Positions 2,684 to 2,972 of a DNA stretch of 64,000 nt are shown one piece after another; position 1 is the stretch's first letter; the number at the start of each line of letters is the position of its first letter. The notes beneath the pieces were generated by a model. It was not told the origin of the DNA. It did not search any database and saw only the letters and a program-made list of their open reading frames with translations. A program made the position numbers and the translations under genes. This DNA is from Eubacterium sp. (GTDB lineage: Bacteria; Bacillota; Clostridia; Peptostreptococcales; Anaerovoracaceae), in NCBI GenBank assembly GCA_021769965.1, contig JAETRU010000006.1, forward strand, positions 1-64,000, given 5' to 3'.

Positions 2684-2972
2684 TTGGGCTTCTGAAGCTA
2701 TCAGGCGAACAAAAGCCCAACTTCTTCTGTTTGCCGTTGGGCTTTTCCTTTGATATTTGCTGCAAAGGCCCAATTTTCTTAGGTCTGAGCGGCCATCGGA
2801 AGGGGAATATTGGGCTTTTTTCCCGATTTCGGCCAGTTTAGCCCAAGTCTGCAGACGAAAAACCAGGCTCTGCAAGCAAAAGTTGGGCTTTTCAATCAAT
2901 CTTAGTCAGTTTAGCCCAAATCCTCAGATGAAAAGTTGGGCTTTTTGATCGATTTCAGCTGGTTTAGCCCAA
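2684..2972 (+). repeat. Helically phased palindrome array 1 (289 bp; five 37-bp TTGGGC-N25-GCCCAA modules)
   Basis: Modules 2684-2720, 2737-2773, 2810-2846, 2883-2919, 2936-2972; spacers 16,36,36,16. Confidence 0.9.

Follow-up and report, generated by a model that had tools for sequence, protein, structure and literature searches.

Why should an intergenic region hold five palindromic modules of one and the same length, which differ in their inner sequences but stand at regular distances from each other? This question is raised by a 289-bp array in the window, i.e., the whole stretch of 64,000 nucleotides that was analysed. The initial annotation had described the array as five TTGGGC-N25-GCCCAA modules of exactly 37 bp each, separated by 16, 36, 36 and 16 bp, and had named distance as the property that is conserved. 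Our analysis confirmed the coordinates and spacers (Table 1), and the proposed comparison with shuffled sequence gave seven exact modules in the window against none in 100 dinucleotide shuffles.

The array and its family in the source genome

The array is flanked by the predicted terminator of an SMR gene on one side and by a predicted promoter on the other (Table 1). Its layout does mirror itself about the third module, as had been noticed, but this symmetry is incidental, and the arrays as a whole follow a different plan, usually with five modules, arranged as two arms facing outwards from a long central spacer (36, 46 or 56 bp). Spacers within the arms are 16 bp long, one arm carrying TTGGGCTTTT..AAAAGCCCAA modules and the other TTGGGCTTTTTgat..TTTAGCCCAA modules, and the array in the window corresponds to this general two-arm plan with 20 bp more in one arm spacer.

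Table 1. Array modules, spacers and neighbouring features located in the window.
Feature	Position	Strand	Remarks
Predicted promoter of HTH/DUF3169 genes	2611..2639	-	TTGACA-17-TATACT; on the array's other side
Module 1	2684..2720	+	A-arm; TTGGGC..GCCCAA, 37 bp
Spacer, 16 bp	2721..2736		step 53 bp, about 5 turns
Module 2	2737..2773	+	A-arm; slot recognisably homologous across arrays
Central spacer, 36 bp	2774..2809		separates both arms; step 73 bp, about 7 turns
Module 3	2810..2846	+	T-arm; TTGGGCTTTT..TTTAGCCCAA
Spacer, 36 bp	2847..2882		within T-arm; equals 16 bp plus two turns
Module 4	2883..2919	+	T-arm
Spacer, 16 bp	2920..2935		between modules 4 and 5
Module 5	2936..2972	+	T-arm
Predicted intrinsic terminator	3019..3040	-	of SMR gene (3132-3515, -); between that gene and array
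Second TTGGGC array	5902..6190	-	layout as first, opposite orientation; modules at 5902, 5955, 6028, 6101, 6154
TTAGGT-N26-ACCTAA tandem array	36152..36517	+	5.8 copies of a 63-bp unit (6 turns) with TTAGGT/ACCTAA boxes inverted at a distance of 32 bp

The source genome, a 2.99-Mb draft, belongs to a gut bacterium closely related to Emergencia, and its genus includes Emergencia timonensis and Emergencia sp. 1XD21-10. It contained 34 exact TTGGGC modules in about 15 intergenic arrays on the same 37/16/36 ruler, while the reversed control pattern gave 0, and the array in the window is therefore not a single occurrence. In the second array of the window, the first two modules are exact and the last three degenerate yet recognisable. 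Between this array and a tRNA-Leu gene, positions 5038-5823 (-) encode a 261-aa protein without a Pfam match, which by the look of its sequence is a possible PD-(D/E)XK nuclease.

Inner sequences of the TTGGGC modules were equally diverged within an array (identity 0.40) and between arrays (0.39). Some slots are nevertheless homologous between loci, e.g., the centre-adjacent TTTGnATATTTnCTGCAAAAA, indicating that the arrays descend from common elements. The earlier statement that the array is not a tandem duplication needs qualifying for the class, since a recent duplication of a 53-bp unit was found in the TTGGGC array L026, and a second and larger family of the source genome, with 69 exact TTGAGC-N25-GCTCAA modules and a 63-bp unit, includes near-identical 63-bp tandem units. 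The TTAGGT array of Table 1 probably belongs to the same class as a young member.

Helical spacing, module anatomy and other box families

Neither the TTGGGC nor the TTGAGC family was found in 12 congeners, the latter being absent from the relatives except for single chance matches, and a sequence-only profile of the TTGGGC module pair matched the congeners at chance level only. No match to the exact 24-base module pair was obtained in 85,488 species genomes and viral contigs, a search that may omit the window's own record, and none to the array by BLAST among phage and plasmid records. A scan blind to the box sequence, on the other hand, detected arrays with other boxes and 34-bp modules in two of the 12 congeners (G007 and G011). 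For TGCATA-N22-TATGCA we counted 78 exact modules in G011 and 51 in G007, and for GCACCAT-N20-ATGGTGC 28 and 37, respectively, with 0 in the reversed controls of both genomes; in some genomes the exact modules of a family thus number from 28 to 78 against 0 in reversed controls of the same genomes. Hence, the search in related genomes did not recover the TTGGGC box on this ruler, but it revealed the same kind of array on other boxes in two relatives. Box-blind matches with diverged inner sequence were also obtained on contigs of more distant Clostridia, namely L145 (TAGGATAAAA), L155 (TTTGTAC) and L156 (CTACCA, TTGTCA), and shuffled DNA of the same sequences gave 0 arrays. Two loci of G005 (L100 and L103) carry 90-95-bp tandem repeats that contain inverted repeats and may be another form of this class.

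The steps from module to module support the claim that distance is what is conserved, being close to integral helical turns in all four box families: 53/63/73/83/93 bp for TTGGGC, 42/53/63/105 bp for TTGAGC, 42/52/72/83/93/103/114 bp for TGCATA and 62/167/178/189 bp for GCACCAT. When the 20 step classes of the four families (42 to 189 bp) were pooled, the best period was 10.45 bp with R=0.92, a value reached by 0 of 20,000 random sets, bearing in mind that step classes of the same family are to some extent interdependent and that the GCACCAT steps taken alone fit 11.6 bp slightly better than 10.5. Spacers grew by whole turns as well (16/26/36/46/56, 8/18/38/49/59/69 and 133/144/155 bp), and the spacing was kept though the inner DNA had diverged to about 40% identity. 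The three families measured have a common anatomy, consisting of box, W4 (four A/T), a variable part, A/T at the exact dyad, a variable part, W4 and box, and the A/T power at 10.5 bp was 8 to 20 in arrays compared to about 1.0 in flanks.

Position, conservation and rearrangement between species

All of the 50 arrays placed relative to genes by approximate gene calls were intergenic, lying between codirectional (27), convergent (17) or divergent (6) gene pairs, and the median distance to a flanking stop codon was 51 bp. Pooled over seven orthologous arrays of G007 and G011 (an eighth pair, which could not be aligned, being left out), identity was 92% for the boxes (288/312) as compared to 72% for the inner DNA, 70% for the spacers and 72% for the flanks. 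This box conservation is overstated, since the pairs were selected for carrying boxes in both species. The loss of boxes between the two genomes is partly due to one array from which a single unit was cleanly deleted. Rearranged arrays were also seen between G007 and G011: one is reduced to a single hybrid module and another lacks exactly one unit. Moreover, the interior of one GCACCAT array (L198 versus L093) is inverted between two Emergencia species, its right flank being collinear and its outer modules near-perfect inverted copies in G007.

In two clear cases, C25 (before tRNA-Lys) and C20b, the place occupied by a TGCATA array in G011 has a TTGGGC array in the source genome, and C60 is a possible third. 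The idea that boxes switch in place genome-wide was examined with a concatenated query of flanking genes. About 10 other loci had their orthologous place in G007/G011 without an array of the known families, so that box switching in place was rejected as a general rule and array positions appear mostly lineage-specific. Downstream of a FAD-dependent gene (L028, L029), the source genome has its second TTGGGC array, a place at which G011 and G007 have another inverted repeat, long and imperfect (ACAGAACTTTACCCTTTGTTTGC).

IS110-family elements were found inserted in four arrays. One element with a 340-aa transposase (L046:8158-9180, i.e., G000:C7 at about 32157-33179) lies between TTGGGC modules 4 and 5, and at the starts of contigs C24, C45 and C59 IS-end sequence directly abuts an array. 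This internal insertion together with the three contig starts indicates that the arrays are repeated targets of IS110. Elements of this family also insert into REPs (PMC11208160). The arrays constitute a natural IS110 target niche outside REPs.

Possible explanations of the arrays

A palindromic module may be read as a hairpin or as a dyad on the double helix, and pairing across the dyad bears on this choice. Over positions 2 to 4 past the box, the share of modules that pair was 37 to 43% for TTGGGC, 32 to 67% for TGCATA and 17 to 22% for GCACCAT, the GCACCAT share being below that expected from A/T content alone. Complementarity thus stops at the box, the adjacent AT-tracts being mostly unpaired across the dyad, and modules of the T-arm conserve TTTT opposite TTTA, indicating that no hairpin is being kept. 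In addition, a stem-loop gives no meaning to whole-turn spacing up to 189 bp, and no array among 20 array loci and the window matched an Rfam covariance model.

Tandem bidirectional intrinsic terminators, in which AAAAGCCCAA-N16-TTGGGCTTTT hairpins would stop transcription from both sides, could account for the position of arrays close to stop codons and their lower frequency between divergent genes, and the A-arm boxes around a 16-bp spacer with their A/T tracts resemble a 10-bp stem with a U-tail. This resemblance is confined to the A-arm, however, the TTTA conserved in T-arm modules breaking the stem; spacing is exact, though hairpin loops do not require a fixed length; a separate predicted terminator already lies between the SMR gene and the array; and array C14a lies between divergent genes. 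We therefore consider this reading improbable, in agreement with the initial annotation, which had excluded a simple terminator. Its exclusion of a CRISPR likewise holds: CRISPRs consist of near-identical repeats with unique spacers and cas genes, whereas the arrays keep only 6-bp boxes and AT-tracts in alternating orientation, as judged from the repeats, and had no Rfam match.

The closest kind of known element is found among REPs and BIMEs, i.e., palindromes of the hairpin type that are spread as single-stranded DNA by a RAYT (REP-associated Y1 transposase) and kept passively or as gyrase/IHF sites. REP/BIME arrays are RAYT-associated and bind IHF, Pol I and gyrase in E. coli. The arrays resemble them in occurring in many copies, and further in their regular spacing, alternating orientation, extragenic and species-specific occurrence, several families per genome and targeting by IS110, all described for REPs/BIMEs (PMC2817692, PMC1525189). 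However, the sole Y1 transposase in the source genome (G000) resembles a gene of the IS200 type, with hairpins of its own, and no modules lie within 1.5 kb of it, and the Y1 loci of G007 and G011 are likewise without modules; Y1 transposases not being associated with modules, the RAYT/REP reading was rejected. Complementarity that does not extend past the box and the lack of a conserved stem-loop also speak against it, as does array spacing in strictly whole helical turns, which DNA between repeats of the REP style is not known to keep. While REP/BIME palindromes span 20-40 bp, the arrays have boxes of 6-7 bp, and they differ in having a defined two-arm unit of four or five modules with neither a RAYT link nor an extended hairpin. 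A REP/BIME origin thus appears unlikely, and since this closest kind failed two defining tests (RAYT link and stem-loop), we set the arrays apart as an element class of their own, although a sceptic could count them, broadly, as one more variant among the dispersed extragenic repeats. Our literature search, largely of papers outside subscription, returned work on REP/BIME and nothing on helically phased box arrays in Clostridia.

Remnants of MITE-like mobile repeats without a host role, with the boxes as end-binding sites of a lost transposase, would agree with lineage-specific families that mostly occupy different places in each species and with array slots that are homologous across loci. 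Such an origin is nonetheless very unlikely in our judgement, as there are no conserved outer ends or target duplications, the flanks beyond the outer boxes sharing no sequence, and as boxes are conserved while neighbouring DNA drifts and spacing is preserved after divergence of the inner DNA.

By analogy, the modules might also be target or regulatory sites of a site-specific recombinase, comparable to Tn3/gamma-delta res with its several dimer-bound dyads or to a 34-bp lox-type site. The centres of res sites I and II are 53 bp apart, a distance equal to one module step. Dyads with outer boxes and an AT-rich centre would fit, as would the rearrangements between G007 and G011 (one interior inversion, one shrinkage to a hybrid module and one exact unit loss), and a tyrosine recombinase gene adjoins the single TGCATA array left in the source genome. 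On the other hand, G007, which is rich in two array families, has no small resolvase, its only serine recombinase being large, and a serine resolvase was therefore rejected for this genome. The tyrosine recombinase was rejected as the binding protein as well, since G007 with its 51 TGCATA modules has only a 31-residue match to it. There is no shorter catalytic site such as res site I, and the rearrangements are accounted for by slippage or by template switching at repeats, leaving recombinase sites as remote a prospect as mobile remnants. In res, several resolvase-bound dyads with outer motifs and A-tract segments are bent into one complex (PMC9943657). The arrays are alike in their dyads, outer motifs and A-tract segments, protein binding being inferred for them, but they differ in their many dispersed copies without a recombinase gene, in one module length per array and in that no crossover site was seen.

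Two further systems were compared. Extended DNA uptake sequences of Pasteurellaceae are single dispersed sites in which a short core is followed by AT-tracts one helical turn apart; such tracts are common to both, whereas phasing of several modules is seen in the arrays alone. Integron attC sites have TTRRRY boxes, a pattern that TGCATA and GCACCAT do not match.

Taken together, the unpaired AT-tracts and the failed tests for a REP transposase and a resolvase make protein-binding dyads on double-stranded DNA the best reading, in preference to RNA hairpins, terminators or REP/BIME. We consider it probable that the arrays are phased protein-binding arrays of this kind and, with somewhat less assurance, we favour the whole explanation, in which phased dyads dock a complex of several protein dimers. 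Each 37-bp module would be a dyadic site where each half of a protein dimer recognises one of the two 6-bp boxes through the major groove, and the three AT-tracts one turn apart between the boxes would let the DNA bend towards the protein. Owing to the whole-turn spacing, the four or five dimers of an array would all face the same way and could combine into a single nucleoprotein complex, wrapped or stacked. The modules, their phasing, the common anatomy, the conservation of the boxes and the presence of several box families are observed, whereas the protein, its dimeric state, the wrapping and the role are inferred. The tests made found no binding protein. The intergenic seat, which in the window is bounded by a predicted terminator and by the predicted promoter that follows, may tentatively suggest an architectural or insulating role. 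Array positions mostly unshared between species would be odd for a vital architectural site, and part of the spacing could be due to the arrays having descended from a small number of founders, both of which count against the explanation.

In conclusion, the arrays are a real, repeated class of phased dyad arrays, to our knowledge undescribed, and most likely a platform for a multi-dimer DNA-binding protein. More speculative, and doubtful at present, is the idea of a lineage-specific chromosomal code, in which dedicated proteins with rapidly changing recognition words would assemble phased complexes of several dimers on dozens of arrays between genes and thereby partition or insulate the chromosome; when the word changes, a new set of arrays would replace the old one, sometimes in the same place (as at C25 and C20b), and the helical ruler would be kept. 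If the explanation is true, the arrays are a genome-wide class of bacterial intergenic elements defined by helical geometry rather than by sequence, for which reason searches by sequence similarity fail to link its families, and one would predict a DNA-binding protein that evolves fast, can change its recognition word and assembles as several dimers.
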